A stretch of DNA of 64,000 bases. It comes from Flavobacteriaceae bacterium F08102. Its GTDB lineage: Bacteria; Bacteroidota; Bacteroidia; Flavobacteriales; Flavobacteriaceae. Numbering within the stretch: position 1 is the stretch's first letter; every line of letters begins with the position of its first letter. Location of the stretch: positions 1 through 64,000 of the forward strand of contig JALKAY010000002.1 in assembly GCA_023015935.1 (NCBI GenBank), given 5' to 3'. Below the pieces are notes generated by a model, which saw nothing but the letters and a program-made list of their open reading frames with translations, did no database searches and was not told where the DNA came from. Made by a program: the position numbers and the translations under genes. Shown piece by piece: positions 39,534 through 58,154 of this stretch.

Positions 39534-39562
39534 TATATTTGGTAAACCAATCTGGTTAACCA
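39534..39562 (+). promoter_or_regulatory. promoter and double operator of the PL6-PL7-PL7 genes
   Basis: The -7 box TATATTTG (39534-39541) runs directly into the first palindrome TGGTAAACCA (39540-39549). A second palindrome, TGGTTAACCA, follows at 39553-39562, exactly 13 bp on. TGGTNNACCA is the kind of site bound by FadR/UxuR-type GntR regulators, and such a regulator is encoded at 54002. Binding would cover the -7 box, so repression is the natural reading. Confidence 0.7.
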
Positions 39563-39565
39563 GTC

Positions 39566-39593
39566 AGAAATACGTGTTAACACGCTTATTTCT
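39566..39593 (+). promoter_or_regulatory. perfect 12-bp palindrome CGTGTTAACACG in the PL6 leader
   Basis: The core palindrome is at 39573-39584. Outer arms AGAAATA (39566-39572) and TATTTCT (39587-39593) extend it with a 2-base bulge. It lies just past the expected transcription start, so it may be a second operator or an RNA hairpin near the 5' end. Confidence 0.5.
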
Positions 39594-39637
39594 TTTTATA
39601 GAAATTTTCTTAGAAAGAGAAGTATATACCTCATAAA

Positions 39638-41947
39638 ATGAATAAAATTATTCCCGCATTAGTCCTATTTTTTTTACTGTTTTCTTGCAGTGAAAAGGCT
39701 ACGGTAAAGGCGATTAAAGTTGGCACTATGGACGAATTAAACCGTGCTATTTTAGAAGCAAAACCCGGAAATACGATTGTCTTAGCCAATGGTATTTGGA
39801 AAGATGTGCAGATTGCATTTGTAGGTAAAGGCACTGAAGAAAAACCGATTACTATTAAAGCAGAAACTGCAGGAGAGGTTTTTATCGAAGGGGAGTCAAA
39901 CCTGTCTTTTGGTGGTGAGTATTTGGTGGTAAATGGCCTGTATTTTAGAAATGGTTTTTCACCAACGGAAAATGTTATTGCTTTTAGAATGGACGAAAAT
40001 ACGGTAGCAAACCACTGTAGAGTCACTAATTGTGTCATTGTAGATTTTAATAAATCACAACGCGATGACGATGATTTATGGGTTCAGTTTTTTGGAAGAC
40101 ACAATCAATTAGATCACTGTTATATTGCGGGTAAAACAAATGGAGGTCCTACGGTTAGGGTTGATTTAAAAGGTGTTCAAAGCATTAGAAACTATCATAA
40201 AATTAACGACAACCATTTTGGTCCAAGACCTCGAAAAGGAGGCGCTAGAGGTGAAACGATCCAATTAGGGAGTAGTTTTACGTCGATGAGTCCTAGTAAT
40301 ACCAGCATAACACATAACCTATTTGAAGAATGTAATGGGGAGGTTGAGATAATTTCAAGTAAAACAAATTTCAATGAAATCAAAAATAACGTGTTCTACA
40401 AGAGTGAAGGTTCGGTGGTTACGCGTCATGGAAATTACTGTTTGATTGATGGAAATTATTTTATTGGGGATGGTATCAATGAAAATTTTGGAGGAATTAG
40501 AATCATCAATACGGGGCATTGGGTGACCAATAACTACTTCTATAACTTAAAAGGGAAAAGTTTTAGAAGTCCGCTAGCCGTAATGAACGGTATTCCTAAA
40601 TCACCCTTAAATCGATATAACCAAGTAACCGACGTAGTGGTAGCTTATAATACGTATGTAAATTGTAGTTCACCTTGGCAATTTGGGGTGGGTACAAACA
40701 TTGCGCAAGTCGATGTGTTACCAGCATCCGAAATACGTTCTGCAAGAGCGATTAGAACAACTGTGGCAAATAATGTTGTGTATAATGAAAAAGGTCTTGA
40801 AAGCATTGTTGTTGAGAATGATAAGGCCGATGGCGTTACCTTTAAAAGTAATGTTGTAGAGAATCAAGGGGTCCAATTTAAGGACTTTGATGGTGGAATT
40901 ATTCCCGCTTCTTTAAGCTTGAAAAAAGTATCTGATGATATTTTAATTCCAACAGGACTTCCAAGTGAGGTTGAAGTGTATCAAGGATTCGATTTTGACA
41001 CCATCAAAAAGGACTTATTTGGAAACGCTAGAACAGACAACAACAGCATTGGTGCAGTTGTAGGTGTCGATTTTCCTAATCCTAACATATTAGACAAATC
41101 TAACTATGGGGCGACTTGGTATTCTAACGAAATTGAAACGGCAGCTCCGGTTACGCATACGGTAACGAACGTGGAAGAATTACAAACTATAATAGATGCT
41201 GCGAGTAATGGCGATATGATCGCTTTAGCGGAAGGTATTTATGAAATTTCAAAATCGTTGGTAATTAATAAAACGATTACTATTCAATCCGAAGGAAAAG
41301 CACAATTTGTTTTTTCTGGCGAATCTAGTACGCCCTTGTTTTCTTTACAACCTAAAGGAAAATTGACCGTAAATAAGTTGATCTTAAAAGGAAACAACTC
41401 AAATTATGCCTTTGCGAGTTTAAAAGAGAAGATGTCAAATCATTTCGGACTAACCGTTTTAAATACTGAGATAAGTGATTTTAAGTATGTTTTGAAAGTG
41501 TATAAGCAATCTTTTGCTGAGCGTATTACTTTTGAAAACACGTCAATGTCAAATTGTAAAAACGGCATAGAACTGTCAGAAGAAACTAACGACAGAGGTG
41601 ATTATAACACGGAATATTTAACCGTAAACAACTGTGAGTTCAATACTATTCAAGCTAATGTGATTGATTATTACAGGGGTGGATACGATGAATCTACCAT
41701 CGGTGGAAACTTGTTAGTGTCCAACAGCTCCTTTACAAATTGTGGTGCAAAAGAGAAAAACAAAAGACTGTTGAATCACAATGGTATTGTAAATGTAACG
41801 ATTACTAAAAATACATTTAAAAATAATCCCGTTCAATTTGTTTCTATTCTTTGGGGAGCAAAGAATAATATTGAATCAGAAAATACAATAAGCAATTCAG
41901 GACAACTAAAAACGGAAGAAAATTTAGTTATGACACTGATGTATTAA
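39638..41947 (+). CDS. PL6 family alginate lyase, two-domain form, lipoprotein
   Basis: The 769-residue lipoprotein (lipobox FSC, Cys17) is a chondroitinase-B/PL6-type right-handed beta-helix. Residues ~25-380 form the catalytic helix and ~500-769 a second beta-helix, as in the long PL6 enzymes such as AlyGC. E235 and E237 (GEVEIISSK) are the likely calcium ligands, K242 the base and R263 (VTRHGN) the acid. The Lys-Arg spacing of 21 equals that I recall for AlyGC (K220, R241). These lyases cut alginate by beta-elimination, often at guluronate. It is the first gene after the first operator, 20 bp upstream of a PL7 gene. Confidence 0.9.
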   Translation: MNKIIPALVLFFLLFSCSEKATVKAIKVGTMDELNRAILEAKPGNTIVLANGIWKDVQIAFVGKGTEEKPITIKAETAGEVFIEGESNLSFGGEYLVVNGLYFRNGFSPTENVIAFRMDENTVANHCRVTNCVIVDFNKSQRDDDDLWVQFFGRHNQLDHCYIAGKTNGGPTVRVDLKGVQSIRNYHKINDNHFGPRPRKGGARGETIQLGSSFTSMSPSNTSITHNLFEECNGEVEIISSKTNFNEIKNNVFYKSEGSVVTRHGNYCLIDGNYFIGDGINENFGGIRIINTGHWVTNNYFYNLKGKSFRSPLAVMNGIPKSPLNRYNQVTDVVVAYNTYVNCSSPWQFGVGTNIAQVDVLPASEIRSARAIRTTVANNVVYNEKGLESIVVENDKADGVTFKSNVVENQGVQFKDFDGGIIPASLSLKKVSDDILIPTGLPSEVEVYQGFDFDTIKKDLFGNARTDNNSIGAVVGVDFPNPNILDKSNYGATWYSNEIETAAPVTHTVTNVEELQTIIDAASNGDMIALAEGIYEISKSLVINKTITIQSEGKAQFVFSGESSTPLFSLQPKGKLTVNKLILKGNNSNYAFASLKEKMSNHFGLTVLNTEISDFKYVLKVYKQSFAERITFENTSMSNCKNGIELSEETNDRGDYNTEYLTVNNCEFNTIQANVIDYYRGGYDESTIGGNLLVSNSSFTNCGAKEKNKRLLNHNGIVNVTITKNTFKNNPVQFVSILWGAKNNIESENTISNSGQLKTEENLVMTLMY

Positions 41948-41967
41948 TCCAACTGATCCTTAAATAA

Positions 41968-42984
41968 ATGAAGAAATTACTAGGTATAATTTTCACACTG
42001 TTGCTATGCATTGGATGTAAGAATAATACGACATCGAATCCAGAAGAAGAAGTAGCCAAGGAGATAAAATATCCAAGTGATGTGCTTCCATTTATGAAGG
42101 AATGGAAAATCCTTTTAGGTGATGGAACCTACGTTGAAGAATTGGTGAATTATGAAAAGAACGATTTCTTTTATGTTGAAAATGATGGGGGCATAGATTG
42201 GGTGGTATATAAAACGCCTAACGCTGGTATTACCTCACGTACCTCAAGTAATACGAGAGCTGAATTAGGACAAAAGGAACATTGGATTCCTGAAACTGGG
42301 GGTAAATTAACCGGTACGTTAAAAGTTCAACATGTGTCTACCACTGGCGATGCAAGTGTATCATCTTCCTATTCGGTCGTGGTTGGGCAAATTCACAGTG
42401 ATGAAGGGCATGAAAACGAACCGTTAAAGATTTTTTATAAGAAGTTTCCAGGGCATACCAAAGGGTCGGTGTTTTGGAATTATGAAATCAATACTGAAGG
42501 TGATAATGCGGGAAGATGGGATTTCTCAACTGCCGTTTGGGGGCATGATTTCTCTGTGGTTGGAACAACCCCAACAACCTATCCAACTGAACCTGAAGAT
42601 GGCATTGCTTTAGGTGAAGAATTTAGCTACGAAGTAAACGTGTACGAGGGTATTATGTACCTCACTTTTTCAAGCGAAGGTCATAAGACTATTAGATTCA
42701 CAAAAAGCTTGATAAAATCAGATTTTGCTACAAAATCACAAATTCCACAGCAGATTATTGACGTGTATTCATCAAAACGAACTGTAAGTGTAGAAAGAGA
42801 AATTGCCTACGCTGGTGAAATCAATTATTTCAAACAAGGAGCTTATAATCAAGCCAATGGAAAGTCTACGAAGTCAGAAATCTACGATGGTGATATCGCC
42901 AAACAATATGAAAATGGAAGCTATGCTGAGGTTTGGTTTAAAGATGCTACGGTAGGGGCTGCGACAATTCCTGTAGAACGTTAA
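41968..42984 (+). CDS. PL7 family alginate lyase, lipoprotein (first of a tandem pair)
   Basis: The 338-residue lipoprotein (Cys17 in CIGC) has the three PL7 motifs: NTRAELGQ (R97, E99), VVGQIHS (Q141, H143) and YFKQGAYNQ (Y287-Q295). The QIH form is often linked with preference for guluronate-containing alginate. The first motif lacks the second Arg usual in R-x-E-x-R, having Gly instead. It follows the PL6 gene by 20 bp and precedes a close paralogue, so the three are likely one transcript. A surface or outer-membrane endolyase is expected, making oligosaccharides for the SusCD pair. Confidence 0.92.
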   Translation: MKKLLGIIFTLLLCIGCKNNTTSNPEEEVAKEIKYPSDVLPFMKEWKILLGDGTYVEELVNYEKNDFFYVENDGGIDWVVYKTPNAGITSRTSSNTRAELGQKEHWIPETGGKLTGTLKVQHVSTTGDASVSSSYSVVVGQIHSDEGHENEPLKIFYKKFPGHTKGSVFWNYEINTEGDNAGRWDFSTAVWGHDFSVVGTTPTTYPTEPEDGIALGEEFSYEVNVYEGIMYLTFSSEGHKTIRFTKSLIKSDFATKSQIPQQIIDVYSSKRTVSVEREIAYAGEINYFKQGAYNQANGKSTKSEIYDGDIAKQYENGSYAEVWFKDATVGAATIPVER

Positions 42985-43083
42985 TAAATAGGAAATTCTA
43001 ATGAATGGGGTGTAAGCAAATTGCCAATGGAAGAATGCCAATCCATAGAACGTATATTTTCAAGAACTAACATAATATAAACA

Positions 43084-44172
43084 ATGTATAAAGAATTAAC
43101 GGTTTCAGTTTCATGGATTATGGGTCTTAGTGCCTTCGTGCTGTTTAACAGTTGTGTGTTTACTCCTAAAAAGTCGACTAAAAAAGAAGCACAACGCATA
43201 GTGTATGCAAATGAGGTTATCCCTTTTTTTAATGATTGGAATTTAATTTTGGGAGATGGTTCTAATGTAGGGCATGCAAATAATTTTGAACACGAAGATT
43301 TTTTTTATACCACAAATGATGGTCAAAAGAATTGGATCGTTTATAAAACACCTAATGCAGGCGATACACATGGAACATCAAATAATACAAGAACTGAATT
43401 AGCGCAAGTAAAAAAATGGTATCCCGAAACAGCTGATGATAAATTATCAGCTACGCTTAAAGTAATGAATGTTTCATCCACAGGAGATGCTAGGGTGGCA
43501 GCTTCCTATTCGGTAGTGGTCGGTCAAATTCACAGTGCCGACGGACATGAAAATGAACCACTTAAAATTTTTTACAAAAAATTTCCGGGACATACCAAAG
43601 GGTCTGTTTTTTGGCATTATGAAATTAATACTGCCGGGGATGATAATGCTGGAAGATGGGATTATTCTACCGCTGTTTGGGGTAATGACTTTTCTGTAGT
43701 GGGGGATTCAATAAATACCTATCCCGAAGAGTCCAAAGAGGGGATTGCCTTAGGTGAAGAATTTAGCTATGAAATAGCGGTAAAAGAGGGGGTAATGAAC
43801 TTAACTTTTACGAGCAGAGGACATGAAACAAAAACCTTTACAAAAAATTTAATAGCATCGGCGTATTCAACAAGTGAAGAAATGCCAGCACAGACTCGAA
43901 AATTATTTGCGTCCATTGGTCAAGACGGGGTAGAGCGCAAAGAAGCCTATTTGGGTGAAGGTTGTTTTTTTAAACTTGGTGCTTATAATCAAACCAACGG
44001 AAAATCGCCTGAAGTAAATAGAAATTGGTGTTCGGGGGCTGAAACACATGAAGGTGATCTTACAAAGCAATATGCAGATGGTAATTACGCAGAAGTGTGG
44101 TTTAAAGAAGCCCGTATTGACGTGAGTGACGCGGCGGTGTCTAATCAGGGGTATTTCACCAAAAACGACTAA
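43084..44172 (+). CDS. PL7 family alginate lyase, lipoprotein (second of a tandem pair)
   Basis: This 362-residue paralogue of the preceding gene has lipobox NSC (Cys24) and PL7 motifs NTRTELAQ (R103, E105), VVGQIHS (Q148, H150) and FFKLGAYNQTNGKS. Around the QIH motif 39 of 43 residues match the upstream copy, yet codons differ widely, so the duplication is old and both are under selection. It differs by an insert with two Cys (CFF...NWC) near the active-site Tyr, which could form a disulfide, and by a C-terminal tail. It lies 99 bp after the first copy with no clear promoter between. Confidence 0.92.
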   Translation: MYKELTVSVSWIMGLSAFVLFNSCVFTPKKSTKKEAQRIVYANEVIPFFNDWNLILGDGSNVGHANNFEHEDFFYTTNDGQKNWIVYKTPNAGDTHGTSNNTRTELAQVKKWYPETADDKLSATLKVMNVSSTGDARVAASYSVVVGQIHSADGHENEPLKIFYKKFPGHTKGSVFWHYEINTAGDDNAGRWDYSTAVWGNDFSVVGDSINTYPEESKEGIALGEEFSYEIAVKEGVMNLTFTSRGHETKTFTKNLIASAYSTSEEMPAQTRKLFASIGQDGVERKEAYLGEGCFFKLGAYNQTNGKSPEVNRNWCSGAETHEGDLTKQYADGNYAEVWFKEARIDVSDAAVSNQGYFTKND

Positions 44173-44257
44173 CTGAATTAAGTATAGAACAGTATATGCC
44201 ACACGGCCGGATTTACGGATATTCAGCTGTGAATATTGGTATTTAAAAAATTATCAC

Positions 44258-44286
44258 TACATTTGGTAAACCAATCTGGTTAACCA
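44258..44286 (+). promoter_or_regulatory. promoter and double operator of the PL17-kdgF genes
   Basis: The -7 box TACATTTG (44258-44265) overlaps TGGTAAACCA (44264-44273). TGGTTAACCA follows at 44277-44286, again 13 bp on. The PL17 ATG is 15 bp past the operator. The layout is identical to the sites before the PL6 and susC genes. Confidence 0.72.
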
Positions 44287-44301
44287 ATCTGCTTTAGCAC
44301 C

Positions 44302-46563
44302 ATGAAACATTCCAACGTAGTACGATTCTTTATAGGTCTTTTGATCGTAGGATTAGTTTCTTGTAAGAAGGATGTGTCTACTAAGTTGAACTCGGCGATT
44401 TCATCACAACATCCAAGTTTGGTGTTAACACCACAGGGTGTAATCAATATTAGATCTCATGTAGGAAGTATCCCAATATTTGATCAAACACTAGCGAAAG
44501 TTCAAAAGGAAGTAGATGTTGAAATTGACCATGGTTATGCTGTGCCCATACCGAAAGATTACTCTGGAGGATATACGCATGAAACGCATAAAAAGAATTA
44601 TATCCTTATGCAAAAAGCAGGGGTGTTATATCAAATCCTTGAGAAGGAGAAGTATGCAGCGTTTGTGAAGGAGATGTTGTTTGAATATGCAAAAATGTAT
44701 CCAACATTACCTATTCATCCGAAGACAAGATCGTATGCGCGTGGCAAGTTATTTTGGCAATGTTTAAATGATTCTAATTGGCTCGTGTATACGAGTCAGG
44801 CTTATGATTGTATTTATGATTACCTCTCTGAAGATGAGCGGAACACGCTAGAAAAAGAGTTATTTAAGCCCTTTGCAGATTTTATTTCGATGGATAATCC
44901 GCAATTTTTTAATCGCGTACACAACCATAGTACTTGGGGAAATGTAGCTGTAGGAATGATTGCGTTGGTGATGGAAGATGATCAATTATTAGCACGCGCC
45001 TTGTACGGATTAAAGGATTTTGACTTGGATAAGAATTTAAAAGATAACGATGGTGGCTTTATCAATAAAGATGGGAAAATGGGATTTTTTGCCAATCTCG
45101 ATGAACCATTTTCGCCAGATGGGTATTATACCGAAGGACCCTATTATCAACGGTATGCCATGTATCCATTTTTAATTTTTGCCCAAGGGCTACAAAATAA
45201 AAAACCGGAGTTACAGGTGGTAGCCTATAAAGACAGTGTACTGCTTAAAGGAGTTACTGCACTGTTAAATTTAACGGACCAAAAAGGGAATTTCTTTCTG
45301 CTAAATGATTCACAAAAAGGAATGTCTTTTTACAATACGTCCTTAATATCTGCTGTAGATATTGCCTATCATTTTGGAGGCAACAATCCGGAGCTCTTGA
45401 GTATTGCCGAAAAGCAAGGTGAAGTCACTCTCGATGATGCGGGTTTGGCAGTTGCTCTTGGTATAAAAGAAGGGAAGTCGATCCCTTTTGTTAAAAAATC
45501 TGTTGAATTAACCGATGGGGCGAATGGGGATGAAGGAGCGGTAGGTGTGCTGAGAAGTGGTCCTCTTGAATTGGTTTTTAAATATACGGCACATGGCTTG
45601 AGTCACGGGCATTATGACAAATTATCCTATGCACTTTTTGATCAAGGGGATGAAGTAGTACAAGATTATGGCATGGCTCGTTTTGTAAATATTGAACAAA
45701 AAGGAGGTGGGAATTATTTAAAAGAAAACACTACTTGGGCTAAACAAACGATTGCACACAACACCTTGGTCAGCAATGAAATATCACATTTTAACGGAGA
45801 CTATAGCAAAGGAAGTCAACATCATTCAGAAGCCTATATTTTTAGCGTTGAGAATGAAGTAGTTCAAGTGGCAAGTGCCAAAGAGTTTAATGCCTATCCT
45901 GAAACGGTCTTACACAGAACCATGGTGATTATTAATGATGAGGATTTTGATAATCCATATGTGCTTGATATTATGAGGGTAGCTTCTGATACGACAAATC
46001 AATACGATGTACCTTTTTATTATTTAGGTCAAGTACTGCAAACGAATTTTGAATACTCCAAAAGTGAAGTTCCGCAGCTGCTAGGTAACGCAAATGGATA
46101 TCAACACCTCTATAAGGAGGCAAGTGGATTGGCGACTGGAGAGAACATTAAATTGAATTGGATTTTACATAATAGGTTTTACACCTATACTGCCGTTACT
46201 TCTACGAATGATCAAATGATAATGGCGCGAATTGGTGCAACTGATCCTGAATTTAATTTACGACATGAACCTACCCTTATTTTGCGTAAACGAAATGCCA
46301 AGGATGCATTGTTTGTGTCAACGGTAGAATCAACAGGTACTTATAGTCCAGTTTCTGAATTGGCCATTAATACATATAGTAACATTAAACACCTCGAAGT
46401 AGTTTTTAATACTAGAGATTATACCGCGATTAACATAGTGACAACGAATGATAAATCATCGCTATTTGTGATCTCTAATCACGATAACGATAAAGAAGCA
46501 ACACACAAATTAACAATTAACGATAAGAATTATGAGTGGTCAGGTTCTTATTATTTTGAATAA
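44302..46563 (+). CDS. PL17 family oligoalginate lyase, lipoprotein
   Basis: The 753-residue lipoprotein (Cys21 in VSC) has an alpha/alpha toroid followed by a heparinase II/III-type beta-sandwich. The catalytic neighbourhood is seen in RVHNHSTWGN (N208, H209) and YYTEGPYYQRYAMYP (residues ~275-289, with the catalytic Tyr expected here), plus GLSHGHYDKLSYALFDQ in the sheet domain. PL17 enzymes act exolytically on oligoalginate and release unsaturated monouronate, which becomes DEH. It is probably held in the periplasm or outer membrane. It has its own operator and promoter and is followed 18 bp later by the KdgF gene, whose product acts on the released sugar. Confidence 0.93.
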   Translation: MKHSNVVRFFIGLLIVGLVSCKKDVSTKLNSAISSQHPSLVLTPQGVINIRSHVGSIPIFDQTLAKVQKEVDVEIDHGYAVPIPKDYSGGYTHETHKKNYILMQKAGVLYQILEKEKYAAFVKEMLFEYAKMYPTLPIHPKTRSYARGKLFWQCLNDSNWLVYTSQAYDCIYDYLSEDERNTLEKELFKPFADFISMDNPQFFNRVHNHSTWGNVAVGMIALVMEDDQLLARALYGLKDFDLDKNLKDNDGGFINKDGKMGFFANLDEPFSPDGYYTEGPYYQRYAMYPFLIFAQGLQNKKPELQVVAYKDSVLLKGVTALLNLTDQKGNFFLLNDSQKGMSFYNTSLISAVDIAYHFGGNNPELLSIAEKQGEVTLDDAGLAVALGIKEGKSIPFVKKSVELTDGANGDEGAVGVLRSGPLELVFKYTAHGLSHGHYDKLSYALFDQGDEVVQDYGMARFVNIEQKGGGNYLKENTTWAKQTIAHNTLVSNEISHFNGDYSKGSQHHSEAYIFSVENEVVQVASAKEFNAYPETVLHRTMVIINDEDFDNPYVLDIMRVASDTTNQYDVPFYYLGQVLQTNFEYSKSEVPQLLGNANGYQHLYKEASGLATGENIKLNWILHNRFYTYTAVTSTNDQMIMARIGATDPEFNLRHEPTLILRKRNAKDALFVSTVESTGTYSPVSELAINTYSNIKHLEVVFNTRDYTAINIVTTNDKSSLFVISNHDNDKEATHKLTINDKNYEWSGSYYFE

Positions 46564-46581
46564 AAACAAACAAGTTATAGT

Positions 46582-46959
46582 ATGAAACGATTTAGCGAAA
46601 AGTACATTGTCACAAAAGAAATGCAATGGGAAGACCTTGGAGGAGGAGTGTCACGAAAATTTTTGGGTTACGATAACCAAATTATGATGGTTAGAGTAAA
46701 GTTTAAAAAAGGAGCATTAGGTGCACCGCATCAACATTTTCATACGCAAGCTACGTTTTGTGCTTCTGGTAAATTTGAATTTGAAATTGATGGAGAAAAG
46801 CAAATTGTAGAGGCGGGTGATGGTGTGTATATTGAGCCAAATTTAATGCATAGTGCAGTTTGCCTAGAAGAAGGCGAACTTATTGACACATTTAGCCCCG
46901 TAAGGGAAGATTTTTTAAGTGGTGATAGCGTATCTTATTTTGGGGATAAAAAATCTTAA
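46582..46959 (+). CDS. kdgF: KdgF-like cupin, linearises unsaturated monouronate
   Basis: The single-domain cupin (125 residues) has motif 1 APHQHFHTQATFCASG (metal ligands H50, H52, Q56) and motif 2 GDGVYIEPNLMHSAV (H90). This is the KdgF set, in which Gln replaces the usual Glu. KdgF speeds the conversion of the 4,5-unsaturated ring product to open-chain DEH. There is no signal peptide, so it works in the cytoplasm. It is in an operon with PL17, 18 bp apart, which couples the lyase product with its next step. Confidence 0.9.
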   Translation: MKRFSEKYIVTKEMQWEDLGGGVSRKFLGYDNQIMMVRVKFKKGALGAPHQHFHTQATFCASGKFEFEIDGEKQIVEAGDGVYIEPNLMHSAVCLEEGELIDTFSPVREDFLSGDSVSYFGDKKS

Positions 46960-47133
46960 TTAAAAAATCTGCACACCCCATTAGCGAAGATTTTATGGCG
47001 TAATGCTACCATATCATTATAATACTTCACTGATTTATAGTTGCTATTACTTAAATCTACTCGCTTAATCACTTGCATATCAACAGGTTAAAATAAATTT
47101 ATTAAATAGTGGCTACATTTGGAATAAATGTCA

Positions 47134-47162
47134 TATATTTGGTAAACCAGTTTGGTAAACCA
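47134..47162 (+). promoter_or_regulatory. promoter and double operator of the susC operon
   Basis: The -7 box TATATTTG (47134-47141) overlaps TGGTAAACCA (47140-47149). A second, identical TGGTAAACCA is at 47153-47162, 13 bp on. Confidence 0.72.
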
Positions 47163-47197
47163 GTTATTAATCAATTGGTTACTAAGCTGTGAAACGA

Positions 47198-47227
47198 AAA
47201 AAGGACAGGTGCACGCCTATCCTTTTT
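47198..47227 (+). terminator. terminator-like hairpin in the susC leader
   Basis: AAAAAGGA and AGG pair with CCT and TCCTTTTT (one C-A mismatch between them) around the loop TGCACG. It lies 36 bp after the operator and 149 bp before susC, so it may attenuate the operon. Confidence 0.6.
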
Positions 47228-47231
47228 AGAA

Positions 47232-47253
47232 TTACTTCTTTGGAGGGAAGTAA
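47232..47253 (+). promoter_or_regulatory. second hairpin in the susC leader, GGAGG in the loop
   Basis: TTACTTC (47232-47238) pairs with GAAGTAA (47247-47253). The loop TTTGGAGG carries a Shine-Dalgarno-like GGAGG 12 bp before the ATG of the mini-ORF, unusual in this phylum. Confidence 0.45.
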
Positions 47254-47258
47254 AAAAC

Positions 47259-47318
47259 ATGCAAACCTTAGTTCGCATATTCACAACAAAAATAGGAAAA
47301 ATCTTTCAGTGTTTGTGA
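47259..47318 (+). CDS. possible 19-residue leader peptide upstream of susC
   Basis: The ATG at 47259 opens MQTLVRIFTTKIGKIFQCL before TGA at 47316-47318. It is preceded by GGAGGG (47242-47247). It may be a regulatory leader peptide or chance; nothing but position and the ribosome-binding-like motif supports it. Confidence 0.25.
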   Translation: MQTLVRIFTTKIGKIFQCL

Positions 47319-47375
47319 GTGAATTTGTTTTTAAGTTTTGCCTTAATACTAACTCAGTTAATTAAATGAATTATT

Positions 47376-50300
47376 ATGAACTTAAAAACGAAGCTAATTT
47401 TCACATTAGCCTTTTTCACTTGTACGATGCTATTTGCACAAGAAAGTTTTTTGCTCAAAGGTGAGGTAATTTCTAAAACGGATAATTCACCGATACCTGG
47501 AGTAAATATTATTATTAAGGGGACTGCTATTGGAACTTCTACGGATTTTGATGGTAAATTTGAAATCAAGGTAAAAAAAGGAAATGAACTTCAGTTTTCT
47601 TATGTTGGTTACATTGCTCAAACCATTACCGTGAGCGATGATTTATCCTTGAAAGTAACTTTGATTGAAGACGACAATACCTTAGATGAGGTAGTTGTTA
47701 TTGGGTATGGTACTTCCAAAAAATCGCATCTTACCGGATCCATCTCTAAAGTAGTTAATGACGATTTAGATCAGATCGCTGTAGCTCGGGTAGACGATGC
47801 GTTGATTGGTCAAGTATCGGGAGTGAATATTCAAGCAACAGATGGAGAAGCTGGGGCCGCACCGACCATTAATATTAGAGGGGTTGGCTCCATGTCTGGA
47901 GATTCTACACCGTTAATTGTCGTAGACGGTGTGATTGTAAGTGCCGATTTCTTAGGGTCCTTAAACATGAATGATGTAGCCTCTTTTGAGGTGTTAAAGG
48001 ATGCTGCATCGTCAGCGATTTATGGATCTAAGGGGGCCAATGGTATCATAATGATTACGTCAAAAGTGGGGATCGAAGGGGATACAAAATTTAACTATGG
48101 TACATTTACAGGATACAAAGAAGCTAAACACAGTGATGCGTATACCTTTTCTATTGCCGAGACGGCAGCCGCCGAATTAGCAGCGAATGGAACTATTTCA
48201 GATAGAACGCGTTACAAACAGTTGATAGGCATTGATCGTTCGTGGCAGGATGTTATTTTCGATGGAGGGAATATCACCAGCCACTCGTTGAGTGCACGGG
48301 GAGGGAGTAAGAAAACGAAATTCAGTACTGGGTTGAATTACTTGCATGATGAAGGGGTTTTACTTACCGATGATTTTAAAAAATACACCTTTAAGGTTAA
48401 GGTAGATACTAAAATAAATGATAAGTTTTCGTTTGGAGCAAACATGTCTCCATCCTATACCAATAGAAGACGGTTTGATGGCTCAACCCATGATATTTTA
48501 AGACAGACCAATTGGTTGCCTGTGTATCATGACGAAAATACGATTCAGTATGTGGATCGTACAGTTTATCCGGATGTGCAAGTAGGGGATTATGCATTGC
48601 AATACCATTTTGATAATTATGATTTAGATGGAGATGGTCAGTTAATTGATATCAGTACGACCTCGAATACGAATCCAGCAGCCAAAGTGTTAGAAAGAGA
48701 GCGGTATGATAAGAAATTTAAACTTTTTGGAAGCGTGTATGGAAACTACAATATTACAAATTCCCTGAGTTTTAGAACGACCTTATCAGGGTCGTATCAA
48801 GATACAAAACGAACGAGATGGCAAGGAGTTTTATCAAATCGTAATGGCGCTTCTGCCGCATCTATGAATGAAATATCTCAACGAGAAATTTACTTGATTT
48901 CTGATAACTTCTTGTCGTACAATAAATCGTTCGGGGGTCACGATATAAGTGCTATCGCAGGTTTTTCAGGGGAAACTACGAAATCCTTTTTCTCAACCAT
49001 TACGGGTACGGGGTATACTTCAGATGACGTAAAGCAAATTACCAATGCAACGTTGATTTCTAACGCAGATGCCTTTGAATGGAAAAAAACAGGCTTGTCA
49101 TACGTTGCCAGGGTGAATTATGCATTTAATAATAAATATTTGGCTTCCTTTAGTTTTAGACGTGATGGAAGTTCCATTTTTGGTAGTGATTTTAAATATG
49201 GAAATTTCCCAGCAGCCTCCATTGGTTGGAATGTTTCTAAAGAGGACTTTTTAAGTGATGTGAATTGGATTTCTAATTTGAAATTGAGAGCGAGTTATGG
49301 AGTAACAGGGAACGATCGCTTGAACACAGGGAGCGTAGATCCTGATGTGAGTAGTAGTACAAGTACGTTGAGTACGGGTAATATATTAGTAGATTATTAT
49401 CCTTCATTAGCTTTACTGGGGGCTACTACCGCCGTAGTTGACGGAATCCTTGTTGCCGGTTTTAACCCCGCAAATATTGCAAATGCAGAACTGCAATGGG
49501 AGCGATTAGTAGAAGTAAATCCAGGGATTGATTTCGGATTTTTTAATAATAGAATTGCGGGGTCTTTTGACTATTACCAACGAACAAGTGATCAATTGCT
49601 TTTAAATAATCCAGTATCAGTAACTACTGGTTTCGACGCGGCTTTAGTTAACCTCGGGGAAGTTAAAAATGAAGGGGTAGAGTTTGAATTGAGAACTCGA
49701 AATATCGCCAAGGAGAAATTTAATTGGAATACCACGATTATCGCTACAAGAAATAAAAACACCTTAGTAGATTTTGCAGATTCTGATGGGCAAATTACCA
49801 ATGTCGATGATAAGAGAGCCGCAGAATGGATTAATTTGGAAGGAATGCCTATTTCAACATTTTACGGTTGGGTGGTAGATCGGGACATTCCGTTGGAATA
49901 TCTATCTAATGCGTATCATCCGGTGGGTGGTCAAGCGCAAGATGTATATGTAAAGGATTTAAATGGCGATGGAATTATTGACGATGAAGATAAGGCACCT
50001 TTAGGCGATCCGTATCCGGATTTAGTGTGGAGTTTAAGTAATAGTTTTAAACTGGGGAACCTTGACTTTAGCTTTATGTTCCAAGGGTCACATGGGGCAG
50101 AAATTAGAAATATGGGCGATCAGTATATTTTTAATCATTTTAATGGTGGTCAAGATTTTAATCCTTCAACTACTCCTGATCAAGCGTTTATCAAAGAGAA
50201 AATATTTACGAATGATATTATTCAAGATGCCTCGTATGTCGCATTGAGAAATGTCAATATTGGATATAATTTCTCAAAAGAAGTCCTGTCAAAAATTGGT

Positions 50301-50477
50301 GTGTCTGGATTGAGATTATACGTTGCAGGCCAAAATTTAATGTACAAAACGGCATCAGATTATACAGGGTTTAATCCTGAGTCCATTGATAGAACAAGTC
50401 CGACAACCTATGGGTATCAAAGAGCCGGGTCACCTATTTACAGAACCTATTCTTTAGGTTTGAATCTTGATTTTTAA
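47376..50477 (+). CDS. susC: SusC-type TonB-dependent receptor for oligoalginate
   Basis: The 1033-residue outer-membrane receptor has a signal peptide (cut near LFAQ, residue ~22) and a CarboxypepD_reg-like domain (PGVNIIIKGTAIGTSTDFDG, ~40-60). The SusC signature TLDEVVVIGYG follows, then a plug domain (GQVSGVNIQATDGEAG; GSMSGDSTPLIVVDG; VLKDAASSAIYGSKGANG) and a 22-strand barrel ending in YSLGLNLDF with a terminal aromatic. It forms the transport channel closed by the SusD lid. The SusD gene follows 25 bp later. Its position among PL6, PL7 and PL17 genes indicates alginate oligosaccharides as the cargo. It is regulated by the upstream double operator and perhaps by leader hairpins. Confidence 0.95.
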   Translation: MNLKTKLIFTLAFFTCTMLFAQESFLLKGEVISKTDNSPIPGVNIIIKGTAIGTSTDFDGKFEIKVKKGNELQFSYVGYIAQTITVSDDLSLKVTLIEDDNTLDEVVVIGYGTSKKSHLTGSISKVVNDDLDQIAVARVDDALIGQVSGVNIQATDGEAGAAPTINIRGVGSMSGDSTPLIVVDGVIVSADFLGSLNMNDVASFEVLKDAASSAIYGSKGANGIIMITSKVGIEGDTKFNYGTFTGYKEAKHSDAYTFSIAETAAAELAANGTISDRTRYKQLIGIDRSWQDVIFDGGNITSHSLSARGGSKKTKFSTGLNYLHDEGVLLTDDFKKYTFKVKVDTKINDKFSFGANMSPSYTNRRRFDGSTHDILRQTNWLPVYHDENTIQYVDRTVYPDVQVGDYALQYHFDNYDLDGDGQLIDISTTSNTNPAAKVLERERYDKKFKLFGSVYGNYNITNSLSFRTTLSGSYQDTKRTRWQGVLSNRNGASAASMNEISQREIYLISDNFLSYNKSFGGHDISAIAGFSGETTKSFFSTITGTGYTSDDVKQITNATLISNADAFEWKKTGLSYVARVNYAFNNKYLASFSFRRDGSSIFGSDFKYGNFPAASIGWNVSKEDFLSDVNWISNLKLRASYGVTGNDRLNTGSVDPDVSSSTSTLSTGNILVDYYPSLALLGATTAVVDGILVAGFNPANIANAELQWERLVEVNPGIDFGFFNNRIAGSFDYYQRTSDQLLLNNPVSVTTGFDAALVNLGEVKNEGVEFELRTRNIAKEKFNWNTTIIATRNKNTLVDFADSDGQITNVDDKRAAEWINLEGMPISTFYGWVVDRDIPLEYLSNAYHPVGGQAQDVYVKDLNGDGIIDDEDKAPLGDPYPDLVWSLSNSFKLGNLDFSFMFQGSHGAEIRNMGDQYIFNHFNGGQDFNPSTTPDQAFIKEKIFTNDIIQDASYVALRNVNIGYNFSKEVLSKIGVSGLRLYVAGQNLMYKTASDYTGFNPESIDRTSPTTYGYQRAGSPIYRTYSLGLNLDF

Positions 50478-50502
50478 TAGAAAACAGCTAATAATATATA
50501 TT

Positions 50503-51930
50503 ATGAAAAAAATAAAAAATTTAACTGTACTCTTGATAACAGTGTTACTTGCGTCTTGTTCAAGTGACTTTTTGGAACCTGCACCCACATCTGGGGTGAC
50601 CTCATCTACCTATTACAGTACTGTTGATGAAGTAGAGACCGCAGTTATAAATATGTATGACGGTATCCAAGGAGTTAACTCTACGGATAATGATGATAAC
50701 CACGGCGTTATGTATGAATTTTACCTAACTGAAATGCGTTCTGATAATACGAGAACAAAAAGTGGAGAAGGGGAAGCTGCTCAATTTGATAATTTTACAG
50801 TGACTCCAAATAATGGTATTGTAAGTGATTATTATTCAAGTTTTTATAACGTTATTTTTAGAGCAAATATCGTTTTGGATAATCTCGATGTGGTTGAAGA
50901 TGCAAACGTAGCGGCTGCCTTTGAAGGAGAAGCGAAATTCGTAAGAGCCTATGCCTATTTTAATTTAGTACGCTTGTTTGGTGAGATTCCGTTGGTGGAC
51001 CGAGTAATCGCTCCTTCTGAAACGGATGTTCAATTTACGAGAGTTCCAACCGCTTCTGTTTATGCACTTATTGAAAGTGATTTAACTACAGCCATTGCTA
51101 CGTTAAATAATGATCATAAAAACAGAGCATCTAAAGCTGCGGCACAAGCACTGTTAGCAAAAGTATATTTAACGCAAAAGAAGAATTATACCGAAGCACA
51201 AGGGTTGTGTGAAGCGGTAATGGGTAGTGGATTTAGCTTGGAACTTAATTTTAATGATGTGTTTTATAATGAAAATAATAATGAAGTTATTTTTGCTATA
51301 GGCTATGTACCAACCTTGTCAAGTGATAGTCAGAATTTTTCTGCTGAATGGATGAATGCTGTAGGGAGAACTTCTGGAGTGAACTATGTAACTACCGAAG
51401 CCCGGGCCGCGTTAGACGCTTCAGGTGGAGACCGTACACCGTATTCATATCGACAAGATTTAAGTCAACTTTCACAATATCAGGTGGCTAAATATTTGCC
51501 AAATGGTGAGGATGGAGGTGCGAATGGTAAGACCTTTGTTTCTGACGCCACCTTAGCGGGTAACGATTGGATTGTGTTGAGATATGCTGATGTTTTATTA
51601 ATGCATGTGGAAGCTATCATGGGGGATAATACAGAAACGAGTGTAGAAATAGCCTTGAGTTCGTTCCAGAAAGTGAGAGATAGAGCTGGATTTACCACCC
51701 CTGTAACCTCGATTACAAAAGACGAATTATTACTTGAACGTCGCGTGGAATTAGCGTTTGAAAATCACCGTTTGTTTGATTTAATACGCTTTGGTAAGGC
51801 AGAATCTGTTTTATCAGCTTTTTCATCAGCGAATGGATATAGTTATTCGTCTACCGATCTTTTATTACCTATCCCTCAAAATGAGATTAATTTGAGTAAA
51901 GGTGTAATGACTCAAAATGCAGGGTATTAG
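50503..51930 (+). CDS. susD: SusD-type oligosaccharide-binding lipoprotein
   Basis: The 475-residue lipoprotein has lipobox LASC (Cys19) followed by SSDFLEP, whose acidic residues fit an outer-surface export signal. The SusD features are FVRAYAYFNLVRLFGEIPLV, where the TPR-like helices begin, and the C-terminal ERRVELAFENHRLFDLIRFG block followed by LLPIPQNEINLS. It forms the lid over the SusC channel and binds the glycan. The ATG at 50503 is preferred over an in-frame upstream start at 50467, which would overlap susC and hide the signal peptide. Confidence 0.95.
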   Translation: MKKIKNLTVLLITVLLASCSSDFLEPAPTSGVTSSTYYSTVDEVETAVINMYDGIQGVNSTDNDDNHGVMYEFYLTEMRSDNTRTKSGEGEAAQFDNFTVTPNNGIVSDYYSSFYNVIFRANIVLDNLDVVEDANVAAAFEGEAKFVRAYAYFNLVRLFGEIPLVDRVIAPSETDVQFTRVPTASVYALIESDLTTAIATLNNDHKNRASKAAAQALLAKVYLTQKKNYTEAQGLCEAVMGSGFSLELNFNDVFYNENNNEVIFAIGYVPTLSSDSQNFSAEWMNAVGRTSGVNYVTTEARAALDASGGDRTPYSYRQDLSQLSQYQVAKYLPNGEDGGANGKTFVSDATLAGNDWIVLRYADVLLMHVEAIMGDNTETSVEIALSSFQKVRDRAGFTTPVTSITKDELLLERRVELAFENHRLFDLIRFGKAESVLSAFSSANGYSYSSTDLLLPIPQNEINLSKGVMTQNAGY

Positions 51931-52911: not shown

Positions 52912-53835
52912 ATGAGAAATTTTAACAGAACGATATGGATATCTATACTTCTCGTATGTATGACGACAAATGTTTCATGTCAAGTGAATAATCGCGGTGT
53001 TAATGAGAAGGCTAAAAATTCGTTATCAGATATAAAAAAGAAAAAGAAGAAACGGAAAAAGGTGAAACTTCCGGATATTGATTTAAGCCATTGGAAAGTG
53101 ACGATTCCTGAAGGAATGGGTAAGGGGAAAACTATCAGTGTGGAACCTCCTGAAATATTAAAGTATGCGAGTAATGAGGTGTTAAAGCCTTATATGTACA
53201 ATGATTCTGTACGAGGAGCACTTGTTTTTTATGCATTTCCAAGCAATTCGACCACTGCCAATACAAAATATTCAAGATCTGAGTTGAGGGAACAGATGGT
53301 GCCAGGAGATGATACGGTTAATTGGACTTTCGCACAAGGAGGAATTATGAAGGGAACCTTGGCAATGGATCAAACCACCAAAGATAAAGAAGGTAAATAT
53401 CATCGAACCATTATTATGCAAATCCATGGGAGATTAACCGATGAACAACGCGATTTAATAGGCCAAAAGGATAATAATGCACCTCCAATTTTAAAAATTT
53501 ATTGGGATAAAGGGAAGGTGCGGGTAAAGACAAAAGTGTTGAAAAATTTGAGCGCTAGCGATGTAGAAATGCTACACGAAGAGGCTTGGGGTGATGATGA
53601 AGGGTTTACTTTTGAACAAGAAGTGGGATTTAGAAAATTTAAACTTGAAGTTCGAGTGACTGAAGGAAAAATGGTGGTGGTACTCAATAATAGTGAATAT
53701 GCCGTATATGAAAATATGCATATAAAAAAGTGGGGTATTTTTGAAAATTATTTTAAAGCAGGAAATTATTTTCAATCGAGAGATCCTGGTTCATTTTCAA
53801 GAGTGAAGTTTTATGACTTATCGATAAGTCATTAG
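52912..53835 (+). CDS. third PL7 family alginate lyase, with a polybasic linker
   Basis: The 307-residue enzyme has the PL7 motifs SRSELREQ (R122, E124, R126), MQIHGR (Q170, H172) and YFKAGNY near the C-terminus, with the full R-x-E-x-R that the tandem pair lacks. The N-terminus is a signal peptide with a weak lipobox (VSC, Cys23). An unusual linker with nine Lys/Arg in a row (about residues 42-50) separates it from the catalytic domain (from ~55). It is more distant from the tandem pair than they are from each other. It is the fourth gene of the susC operon, so lysis and uptake are made together. Confidence 0.9.
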   Translation: MRNFNRTIWISILLVCMTTNVSCQVNNRGVNEKAKNSLSDIKKKKKKRKKVKLPDIDLSHWKVTIPEGMGKGKTISVEPPEILKYASNEVLKPYMYNDSVRGALVFYAFPSNSTTANTKYSRSELREQMVPGDDTVNWTFAQGGIMKGTLAMDQTTKDKEGKYHRTIIMQIHGRLTDEQRDLIGQKDNNAPPILKIYWDKGKVRVKTKVLKNLSASDVEMLHEEAWGDDEGFTFEQEVGFRKFKLEVRVTEGKMVVVLNNSEYAVYENMHIKKWGIFENYFKAGNYFQSRDPGSFSRVKFYDLSISH

Positions 53836-53967: not shown

Positions 53968-53990
53968 TGGTTAACCAATTTGGACACCTT
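53968..53990 (+). promoter_or_regulatory. half-degenerate double operator before the GntR gene
   Basis: A perfect TGGTTAACCA (53968-53977) is followed exactly 13 bp on by TGGACACCTT (53981-53990), a degraded second copy. The gene ATG is 11 bp further. It suggests autoregulation with lower affinity. No clean -7 box is seen; ACATTTTG at 53958-53965 is the nearest match. Confidence 0.5.
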
Positions 53991-54001
53991 ATATTTATCG
54001 T

Positions 54002-54703
54002 ATGAAAATAGAAGTATTAGTGAAAGATGACAATCGCGAAATTCAAAATTCAATTATTTCTAAAATTCGTGATTTAATTAATTTAAAGAATTTAGAACCT
54101 GGCGAGAAATTACCGTCAGAAAGAATGTTGTCAGAAAAATTTGAAGTCAGTCGAAGTAATATTCGTGAAGCCATTCAGAAATTAGAGTTTTATGGGCTGT
54201 TAAAATCAATTCCGCAAAGTGGAACCTTTGTTGCCAATATTGGTATTATTGCGTTGAATGGAATGATTGAGGATATCTTGAGACTTAAAAGTCCTGATTT
54301 TAAATCGTTGGTAGAAACAAGGATTTTATTAGAATTAAAAACCGTACGATTAGCAGCTTTAAGAAGAACCGAAGAAGACCTAAAGCAAATGAAAGCTACC
54401 TTGGAGGCCTATCGTGAAAAAGTAAGGAATGGTCAAGATGCAGTTCAAGAAGATTTGTTATTCCATTTGGCCATTGCCAAAGCAAGTGGTAATAGCACGA
54501 TGAATACCTTTATGTTGAAAATTACCCCTGAAATCATTACAAATTTTGCAAAATATCATGTTTGTGATAAAAATCAAGCGGTTTTAGGAATTCAAGAGCA
54601 TACGGATATTTACAACGCAATTAGGGCGCAAGACCCTAGTTTGGCGAAGCAAATGATGAAGCAGCATTTTAAAGAATTATACAAGTATTGTTATAGTGTT
54701 TAA
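54002..54703 (+). CDS. GntR family regulator, FadR/FCD subfamily, likely repressor of the alginate genes
   Basis: The 233-residue regulator has a winged helix-turn-helix at ~15-78 (GEKLPSERMLSEKFEVSRSN, then IREAIQKLEFYGLLKSIPQSG). The helical FCD effector domain has metal ligands D151, H155 (DLLFHLAIAKASGN), H200 and H222. FCD regulators of uronate genes (UxuR, ExuR) bind TTGGTATACCAA-type sites. The window has TGGTWAACCA pairs at three promoters of this locus and in front of this gene. The effector is probably DEH or KDG, but this is inference. The gene starts at ATG 54002 and lies between the susC operon and the transporter. Confidence 0.92.
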   Translation: MKIEVLVKDDNREIQNSIISKIRDLINLKNLEPGEKLPSERMLSEKFEVSRSNIREAIQKLEFYGLLKSIPQSGTFVANIGIIALNGMIEDILRLKSPDFKSLVETRILLELKTVRLAALRRTEEDLKQMKATLEAYREKVRNGQDAVQEDLLFHLAIAKASGNSTMNTFMLKITPEIITNFAKYHVCDKNQAVLGIQEHTDIYNAIRAQDPSLAKQMMKQHFKELYKYCYSV

Positions 54704-54796
54704 TGGACTTGGTCTTTTAGAGTTGCACGGCTAAAGACACAGGTTGTTATTGGAGGGAGGTAACCTTTTTTGTAATCTAAATAAACATTTTTATTT

Positions 54797-54819
54797 AGGA
54801 TTTCCACACTGGTTTATCT
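54797..54819 (+). promoter_or_regulatory. very weak candidate operator pair before the transporter gene
   Basis: AGGATTTCCA (54797-54806) and TGGTTTATCT (54810-54819) match the operator at 6 and 7 of 10 positions and keep the 13-bp spacing. This could be chance. Confidence 0.2.
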
Positions 54820-54902
54820 CATATATTTTTTAAGTAATAGAGTATTTCATTGCAGGTATAAATCCATGAATATGGACTGTATTTGTGCTTAATAATAAAT
54901 TT

Positions 54903-56183
54903 ATGAAAATAAAAGGATTGCGTTGGTGGATAATTATCTTGATTTTTATTGCCACAGTGATAAATTATATAGATCGAACCGCCTTTGCACTGTTGTGGCC
55001 AGAGATGGGGAAAGATTTAGGCATGGATAATTCAGACTATGCCATTATGTTAAATGTGTTTATGGCGACTTATGCCGTGGGGAAGTTTGCTTCAGGGAAG
55101 TTGTATGACGTTATTGGAACTCGTTTGGGCTTTGTGGTTTCTATTGTGGTTTGGTCATTGGCATCTATGTTTCACGCTTTTGCACGAGGGATTATCTCCC
55201 TTTCTATTGTTCGCGGATTTTTAGGTATTGGTGAAGCAGGTAATTGGCCGGGTGCGGTTAAAAGTAATGGAGAATGGTTTCCTATAAAAGAGCGTGCTAT
55301 AGCCCAAGGTATCTTTAATGCAGGAGCCTCTATCGGAAATGTTGTTGCCCCCTTTGTTATAGTATTTCTTTATGCTAAGTTTGGCTGGAAAACAACGTAT
55401 ATCGTCCTTGGTCTTTTAGGACTCTTATGGGTAATACCCTGGTTGTTTCTCAATAAATCAACCCCAGAAAAGCATCCGTGGGTAACGGATAAAGAAAGAG
55501 CTTTAATTGTATCGGATCAAATAAAAGAAGAAGTCGTAGAAAGTAGCCAACCTACGTTGTCTGCTAAAAAAGGCTTAGGCCACATACTCAAGTATAGACA
55601 ATCTTGGGGACTTCTAACTTGTCGATTTTTTATAGAACCCATTTGGTGGTTTTTTGTAGGGTGGATGCCAATTTATTTAAATTCAAAATTCGGATTAAGT
55701 ATTGAACAAATTGGAGAAACTATTTGGATTTCCTATTTAGGAGGAGCAGCAGGAAGTATTATAGGTGGATGGTTTAGTGGAAAACTTATGGAAACAAAAT
55801 CTGTCAATAGCGCAAGAAAAATAACCATTACGCTTGGCGCTATGATGATATTTTCAGGCCTGCTAGGTATTATCTTCTTTGTAAATGAAGAAAACTTTAT
55901 GACCTTCATCTACATCGCAACCTTAGTACTTTTTGGGTTTCAATTTGCTATTGGAAACATACAAACCATATCCAGTGATTTATTTAAAGGAAGTTCTGTA
56001 GGTACTTTAGCTGGTTTGGCAGGTACGGTTGCGGCGGTATCGGTAATGGTAATGAACTGGTTTATTGGTCAAATTACCACAAATTCTTATACACCAGCTT
56101 TTGTTGTAATAGCAATCACTATACCCTTATCCTTAATTGCATTATACGTGATGATTAAGGAGATTGGCCCCGTAAAAAAATAA
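54903..56183 (+). CDS. MFS uronate transporter (ExuT/anion:cation symporter type)
   Basis: The 426-residue membrane protein has about 12 helices. The ACS-family block GIGEAGNWPGAVKSNGEWFP (near residue 115) is very close to hexuronate transporters such as ExuT, and the N-terminal NYIDRTAFALLWPEM is also typical. It probably carries unsaturated uronate or DEH from periplasm to cytoplasm with H+ or Na+. The ATG at 54903 is preferred over a GTG at 54885 because it leads directly to the basic start KIKGLRWW of the first helix. The DEH reductase gene follows 26 bp later. Confidence 0.88.
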   Translation: MKIKGLRWWIIILIFIATVINYIDRTAFALLWPEMGKDLGMDNSDYAIMLNVFMATYAVGKFASGKLYDVIGTRLGFVVSIVVWSLASMFHAFARGIISLSIVRGFLGIGEAGNWPGAVKSNGEWFPIKERAIAQGIFNAGASIGNVVAPFVIVFLYAKFGWKTTYIVLGLLGLLWVIPWLFLNKSTPEKHPWVTDKERALIVSDQIKEEVVESSQPTLSAKKGLGHILKYRQSWGLLTCRFFIEPIWWFFVGWMPIYLNSKFGLSIEQIGETIWISYLGGAAGSIIGGWFSGKLMETKSVNSARKITITLGAMMIFSGLLGIIFFVNEENFMTFIYIATLVLFGFQFAIGNIQTISSDLFKGSSVGTLAGLAGTVAAVSVMVMNWFIGQITTNSYTPAFVVIAITIPLSLIALYVMIKEIGPVKK

Positions 56184-56209
56184 ATTAAGAATAAATAAAA
56201 TAGAAAAAT

Positions 56210-56974: not shown

Positions 56975-57049
56975 CATTAAACCATATCCAACATTGGATA
57001 TATAGATTAAGGATAGAATTGAGTCGCTAATGTTGTAGAGAACGATCGG

Positions 57050-57077
57050 AAAGCGTTATGTTACCATAGCGCTTTTT
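57050..57077 (+). terminator. intrinsic terminator between the DEH reductase gene and kdgK
   Basis: AAAGCGTTATG pairs with CATAGCGCTTT (one G-U) around the loop TTAC, followed by a T-tract. It splits transporter-reductase from kdgK-eda. Confidence 0.75.
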
Positions 57078-57118
57078 AACGTAAAAAAAATACGTAGTTT
57101 AGTAATTAATTTCAAGAA

Positions 57119-58141: not shown

Positions 58142-58154
58142 ACAAAACAGCATC

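Follow-up and report, generated by a model that had tools for sequence, protein, structure and literature searches.

Stepped operator units at the alginate promoters of Flavobacteriaceae bacterium F08102, probable targets of an AusR-type GntR repressor

Introduction

The closest described system is AusR of Zobellia galactanivorans (Dudek et al. 2020, NAR; PMC8286568, PMC8073546, PMC7874173), a GntR-family regulator encoded within an alginate locus, which is reported to repress most alginate genes and to be released by oligosaccharide effectors (PMC8286568), and which, according to PMC7874173 (citing Dudek et al.), binds single, double or triple copies of its operator. Here we analysed a stretch of 64,000 nucleotides from Flavobacteriaceae bacterium F08102 (contig JALKAY010000002.1, positions 1 to 64,000, referred to as the window), in which a gene for a GntR-type regulator, a candidate orthologue of ausR, likewise sits in an alginate utilization locus with PL6, PL7 and PL17 type genes around it. 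The present case differs from Zobellia AusR in species and locus. Its predicted operator is present in two copies at three promoters of the window and in one copy before ausR, and triplets occur in relatives. As set out below, the double sites are very probably operators of this locus-encoded, FCD-type GntR repressor of the AusR type, which would occupy them as stacked dimers.

The preliminary description of these sites, made from the window alone, knew of no published account of the double site. Because PMC7874173 reports AusR operators in single, double or triple copies, this kind of operator is already published and novelty in this respect is not supported; what may be new is that different genera share the 13-bp register. 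Among the matches listed in literature searches with the motif strings, the titles concern other subjects.

Two further systems are useful for comparison. For UxuR, GntR, PrpR and other members of the FadR subfamily, PMC4494728 gives motifs with 2 nt between GT and AC. They share with the sites described here the TGGT-N2-ACCA unit and its A/T-rich surroundings, so that the likeness to uronate-regulator sites that had been pointed out earlier holds for the UxuR-like motif class, whereas the fixed 13-bp array tied to a -7 box found here is not among the properties given for these motifs in the part of PMC4494728 that treats them. The second system is NanR of Escherichia coli, for which PMC8012715 reports that three dimers bind a (GGTATA)3 operator cooperatively, about half a turn apart, and that cooperativity requires a 32-residue N-terminal extension.

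Two operator units 13 bp apart at three alginate promoters

The double sites are located at 39540-39562, 44264-44286 and 47140-47162, and inspection of the sequence confirmed both these coordinates and the start-to-start spacing of 13 bp given in the preliminary description. At the PL6 promoter (unit 1, TGGTAAACCA, 39540-39549; unit 2, TGGTTAACCA, 39553-39562) and at the PL17 promoter (unit 1, TGGTAAACCA, 44264-44273; unit 2, TGGTTAACCA, 44277-44286) the units are separated by the spacer ATC, and at the susC promoter, where both units are TGGTAAACCA (47140-47149 and 47153-47162), the spacer is GTT; all units were located by pattern search on the plus strand. Each site had been described as two perfect 10-bp palindromes. 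This is correct for TGGTTAACCA, the second unit at the first two sites, and incorrect for TGGTAAACCA, which has the centre AA and the reverse complement TGGTTTACCA and is palindromic in its outer eight letters only, so that neither unit at 47140-47162 is perfect. The unit is better described as TGGT-N2-ACCA.

The pair pattern TGGTNNACCA-N3-TGGTNNACCA was found at 3 places in the 51 contigs (3.32 Mb) of the genome, all at these promoters and thus before alginate genes rather than at unrelated ones, and its reversed control at 0 places. With the gap left free from 0 to 16 and the first unit written as TTGGTNNACCA, the genome yielded the same three places and no others. The single unit TGGTWWACCA occurs at 27 places in the genome versus 25 for its reversed control. 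Since the single unit is near background and the pairs stand at 3 versus 0, it is the pair, not the single unit, that carries the signal. In the window alone, TGGTWAACCA with one mismatch gave 19 matches against a shuffle mean of 10.4, a number reached by 2 of 100 shuffles. The double sites are real and not the product of chance.

The 13-bp step in related loci

The spacing was compared in 41 loci comprising 1.6 Mb round ausR, namely about 40 kb from each of 40 further genomes together with the final 28 kb of the window. Two of the 40 fetched stretches are shorter; all were drawn from the 103 genomes with AusR described below, and four of the 40 come from genomes without an exact pair. Exact units form 69 pairs at a distance of 13 bp and 4 at 26 bp, with no other distance up to 60 bp, and the control ACCANNTGGT (40 sites) forms no pair. 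Near-exact pairs, in which 15 of 16 letters fit, number 125 at 13 bp and 21 at 26 bp, and the remaining steps between 10 and 32 bp account for 1 in total. The 13-bp step, whose comparison over alginate loci of other Flavobacteriaceae had been proposed earlier, is therefore kept. When units matching in 7 or 8 of 8 letters are counted and every array must contain an exact one, 94 arrays are present in 41 of 41 loci, consisting of two units in 58 cases, three in 34 and four in 2. The third unit is on the downstream side, remote from the box discussed below, both in the 3 exact triplets and in the 8 exact pairs extended by a 7-of-8 unit. At the PL17 promoter of the window a third unit, TGCTTTAGCA, which fits in 6 of 8 letters, keeps the 13-bp register at 44290-44299.

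A second set comprised 79 named loci, none longer than 20.7 kb, several of which are from the same genomes and hence not independent. An exact pair is present in 52 of them and a pair with at least 14 of 16 letters in 24 more. After removal of repeats, 100 distinct arrays in 74 loci remained (94 of them with the box), and records of Maribacter, Kordia, Aquimarina, Cellulophaga, Polaribacter and Winogradskyella are among their sources; the 79 named loci include none from Zobellia.

The fixed step bears on how the units would be used. They could be AusR operators of which only one is occupied by a dimer at a time, the extra units raising the occupancy of the promoter without any contact between dimers. 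Many ausR promoters carry single units, as such an arrangement would allow, and two dimers with a footprint of about 17 bp, the size known for FadR, would overlap at a step of 13 bp. Independent sites, however, need no exact step, which is difficult to match with the 125, 21 and 1 near-exact pairs given above, and the relative NanR is reported to place its three dimers about half a turn apart (PMC8012715). We therefore consider occupancy by one dimer per promoter unlikely. The fixed step suggests a cooperative contact between dimers and, kept over 94 arrays, would be hard to explain without such contact or a shared distortion of the DNA.

A separate rule, by which degraded units would lose their outer half-site only, was rejected on the counts of degenerate end units: the degenerate half is the outer one in 21 and the inner one in 4 first units, and the outer one in 13 and the inner one in 16 last units.

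Promoter register and target genes

At all three sites in the window the TG of the first unit is the end of a -7 box, as had been noted before: TATATTTG at 39534-39541 for the PL6-PL7-PL7 operon, TACATTTG at 44258-44265 for the PL17-cupin operon and TATATTTG at 47134-47141 for the susCD-type operon, all on the plus strand and identified from the sequence. In Flavobacterium psychrophilum the sigma-A promoter is reported to have TAnnTTTG at -12 to -5 (PMC9723704), a position which places the predicted transcription starts of the three operons at about 39546, 44270 and 47146. The present promoters share TAnnTTTG with the known sigma-A promoter and differ in that the last two letters of the box double as the first two of the operator.

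The overlap is general. In the 41 loci TAnnTTTGG is present at an array end in 91 of the 94 arrays and at both ends in 7, against a background in which TAnn precedes 549 of 6477 TTTGG, and none of the 61 isolated exact units has the box. A TTG about 19 nt upstream is the upstream element of the flavobacterial sigma-A promoter, and of 61 exact arrays 35 have a TTG exactly 19 nt upstream of the box; over the arrays, both parts of such a promoter are thus recognizable. PL17 (TTG at 44236-44238) is the only one of the three window promoters that has it. The earlier suggestion of one operator architecture overlapping the -7 box at alginate promoters is therefore well founded.

The genes behind the 91 boxed arrays are susC-like in 44 cases, some of them encoding proteins only 32-40% identical to the SusC-like protein of the window, and of the PL6 (11), PL17 (8) and PL7 (11) types. 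Seventeen of the arrays have no tblastn match to window proteins within 450 bp, and for 3 of these there is no open reading frame of 100 aa within 900 bp. Of the 14 proteins behind the remaining unmatched arrays, 7 carry a type IX secretion tail, and polysaccharide lyase matches were obtained for two of these 7 (one under its cut-off); the others are 2 RraA-like proteins, 1 TIM barrel, 1 shikimate-kinase-like protein, 1 GntR/FCD regulator and 2 proteins without family. Downstream of ausR in the window, the MFS, SDR, KDG kinase and KDPG aldolase genes (54703-58826) are without an AusR array, and genes of these types were assigned none of the 91 boxed arrays; they may be transcribed by read-through from ausR or be under other control. 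In AusR-bearing Flavobacteriaceae, alginate promoters would be recognizable by TAnnTTTGGTNNACCA with units every 13 bp. One short pattern thus marks the alginate promoters, and candidate AusR targets can therefore be read from a genome.

Co-occurrence of the operator pair and AusR

AusR-like proteins (E 1e-30 or better) are encoded in 103 of 397 Flavobacteriaceae genomes, and the operator pair is present in 98, at 255 places in sum, with 0 for the reversed control. Pair and AusR occur together in 97 genomes, the pair alone in 1, AusR alone in 6 and neither in 293 (Fisher p 4e-84, uncorrected for kinship). In a sample of 395 genomes from the phylum the pair was found in 10, all of them Flavobacteriaceae, and in 0 of 354 genomes outside the family (rows counted by eye); the reversed control occurred once each in three genomes.

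These counts bear on two alternatives. Chance similarity, for which the single units at genome background could be cited, is refuted by the pairs in the genome (3 versus 0), by the 255 versus 0 places over the 397 genomes and by the co-occurrence with AusR, and has practically no probability left. The motif could also belong to another protein, or be an element of the promoter or the initially transcribed region that is unrelated to AusR, and the bases shared by the end unit and the -7 box in almost all arrays fit such an element. However, AusR is found in 97 of the 98 genomes with the pair and is absent in 293 of the 299 family genomes without it, and 24 of the 61 isolated exact units in the 41 loci stand just upstream of ausR. 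On the co-occurrence and the spacing of the units we rejected this alternative as highly improbable.

The regulator and its own promoter

The regulator gene of the window (54002-54703, plus strand), whose assignment as a candidate ausR orthologue also draws on the co-occurrence, encodes a protein with a GntR winged helix-turn-helix domain (PF00392, E 2.5e-18) and an FCD domain (PF07729, E 7.3e-28), both above cut-off, so that the GntR/FCD regulator announced in the preliminary description is indeed encoded in the locus. Residues D151, H155, H200 and H222 are invariant in 13 sequences; conserved Asp and His metal ligands are the pattern of FCD domains. An AlphaFold2 model built with the 13 sequences has a mean predicted local distance difference test score (pLDDT) of 81 and a predicted template modelling score (pTM) of 0.61, and its best structural matches are FCD regulators, including DhdR bound to DNA, NanR, VanR and FadR. 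Whole-chain fits of the model give a root-mean-square deviation (rmsd) of about 7-13 Å and TM-scores of about 0.4-0.5, and the predicted inducer domain fits that of DhdR (9jpk) with an rmsd of 1.7 Å over 130 columns. The best sequence match among solved structures reaches only E 1.9e-16, indicating that AusR itself is without a solved structure.

NanR, like AusR an FCD-type GntR regulator, is matched both in sequence (6on4, E 7e-14) and in the structure search (6on4, 6wfq). Both have closely spaced repeats in their operators, and the side-by-side dimers reported for NanR (PMC8012715) are what we propose for AusR. The repeats differ, as NanR reads direct repeats of GGTATA whereas the AusR units are inverted repeats of TGGT and ACCA. 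The latter would fit the rule for the FCD subfamily given in PMC4494728, with TKGT and ACMA boxes and GT and AC 2-3 nt apart.

An exact unit is present within 100 bp upstream of 24 of 42 ausR starts. In the window this is a single TGGTTAACCA at 53968-53977 (plus strand), whose first base lies 34 bp upstream of the regulator's ATG and which was absent from the earlier list of sites. Five further ausR promoters, read by eye, have the form TAnnTTTAAC-A-AACCA-N3-TGGTTAACCA, which by its letters repeats this layout of box and two units, except that unit 1 has lost its left half. The AACCA-N3-TGGTTAACCA kept in these promoters would also suit a different use of the array, in which one dimer binds half-sites of different units (the inner ACCA-N3-TGGT) and the array is one larger site, and the 3 nt between the inner half-sites are a common distance in the FadR subfamily (PMC4494728). 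The inner pair is, however, oriented wrongly for the family (TKGT...ACMA), and both the ausR promoters with one full unit and the arrays of three and four units are better explained by separate units. We hold binding across units to be very unlikely.

A model of stacked AusR dimers

The model of stacked dimers starts from what sequence comparison gives: the units, their step, the overlap with the box, the link with AusR, the triplets and the unit at many ausR promoters. Binding by AusR, repression, cooperativity, differences in strength between promoters and the inducer are what we infer from it. One AusR dimer would recognize one TGGT-N2-ACCA unit. The first unit would be fixed to the promoter, because its TG also ends the -7 box TAnnTTTG, and further units would be added downstream at exactly 13 bp. 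With the box at -12 to -5, unit 1 would extend from about -6 to +4, unit 2 from +8 to +17 and unit 3 from +21 to +30. Bound dimers would block both the recognition by sigma-A and the start site, and a breakdown product of alginate would release them. Repression by occupying the -7 box and the start region is the simplest reading and agrees with the reports on Zobellia AusR. As 13 bp correspond to 1.24 turns at 10.5 bp per turn, neighbours would be turned by about 86 degrees, and neighbouring dimers would lie side by side in a spiral, near enough to touch. The ausR promoter, often with one full unit, would be subject to weaker self-repression. The natural series of one to four units, exact and degraded, offers material on how packed GntR dimers cooperate.

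Several observations weigh against this model. At a threshold of 14 of 16 letters the 41 loci contain 136 pairs at 13 bp and 43 at 26 bp, but also 24 at other steps from 10 to 32 bp, and three of the 79 named loci, one of them short, have no pair even at this threshold. The box is absent in 3 of the 94 arrays and in 6 of the 100 arrays from named loci. Six AusR-bearing genomes have no exact pair; the four of them that were examined carry arrays with degenerate units. Conversely, genome G154 has a pair (spacer AAG, L023:1501-1523) but no AusR at E 1e-30; the surroundings of this pair were viewed in a 3-kb list of open reading frames. At ausR, 18 of the 42 starts lack an exact unit within 100 bp and in six named loci the gene is closely preceded by an array of two units, so that a single weak unit at ausR is no rule. 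The GntR match of AusR begins at residue 16, and the 32-residue N-terminal extension of NanR is absent. Finally, the degradation of end units also reaches their inner side, so that contact between neighbouring dimers can be no more than proposed.

A candidate antisense RNA in the susC leader

The predicted leader of susC carries a candidate antisense small RNA of about 86 nt on the minus strand (47282 to 47197), opposite nt 52-137 of the leader. It has its own -7 box, seen as CAAAAATA on the plus strand at 47287-47294, and a terminator; a hairpin with A- and T-runs lies at 47200-47226. The hairpin/terminator pattern (up to 2 mismatches) was found in 62 of the 397 family genomes, once each, with 0 for the reversed control, and all 62 genomes have AusR. 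In the 82 distinct oriented hairpin sequences compared, the search pattern itself fixes the first three stem pairs. The remaining four stem positions (328 cells) show plus-strand C-A or A-C in 63 cases and plus-strand G-U in 0, which means that only the minus strand retains the pairing, in the form of G-U. TAnnTTTG stands 40-130 nt away on the minus strand in 69 of the 82 and on the plus strand in 2.

In an alignment of 67 of 76 loci pairing is intact in 99.1% of cells, and 17 cells carry changes in both partners versus 4.0 in shuffles, the structure being derived from the same 67-locus alignment. The 86 nt from the predicted start to the U-run fold into three hairpins at -33.5 kcal/mol (z -8.3), compared with -24.1 kcal/mol (z -3.7) for the plus strand of the same stretch. 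The middle hairpin has a near-invariant stem, ACTTC/GAAGT, and the loop CCTCC or CCTTC in most of the 67 relatives.

Rfam searches at the gathering threshold gave no match in 38000-60000. At E up to 5, nine weak matches were obtained in 47100-47400, none of which comes close to its cut-off; the most similar in kind is the Bacteroides small RNA BTnc231 on the minus strand (20.1 bits versus a cut-off of 80.4). DonS of Bacteroides is reported to represent a family of cis-antisense RNAs of 78-128 nt opposite susC genes (PMC7366714), and by analogy the candidate could be the flavobacterial counterpart of such DonS-type RNAs, which lower susC expression in Bacteroides. No antisense RNA in flavobacterial alginate loci was found among the literature matches listed. 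AusR control might then be combined with a DonS-type antisense layer at susC, on top of a stack locked in register, in which the first dimer would be pinned to the -7 box, further dimers would follow at intervals of 13 bp with a turn of about 86 degrees from one to the next, and the number and quality of units would set the tightness of the promoter. We put forward this combination only tentatively.

Genes of the alginate locus

All genes of the locus lie on the plus strand. The first operon comprises a PL6-type alginate lyase of the Chondroitinas_B family (39638-41947; PF14592, E 4e-200) and two PL7-type alginate lyases (41968-42984 and 43084-44172; both PF08787). In the PL6-type lyase the Pfam match spans residues 30-454 of 769, and the C-terminal part of about 315 residues has no Pfam match at E 0.001. 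The second operon encodes a PL17-type exo-oligoalginate lyase (44302-46563; PF05426 and PF07940, with PF22686 under its cut-off) and a cupin protein (46582-46959; PF07883). The third, susCD-type row consists of a SusC-like TonB-dependent transporter (47376-50477) and a SusD-like lipoprotein (50467-51930), both open reading frames named from sequence and context rather than by family search, and ends with a PL7-type alginate lyase (52912-53835; PF08787). Near the susC promoter there is a second -7-like box, TACATTTG at 47114-47121, which is followed by GAATAAATG and begins 20 bp upstream of the promoter box.

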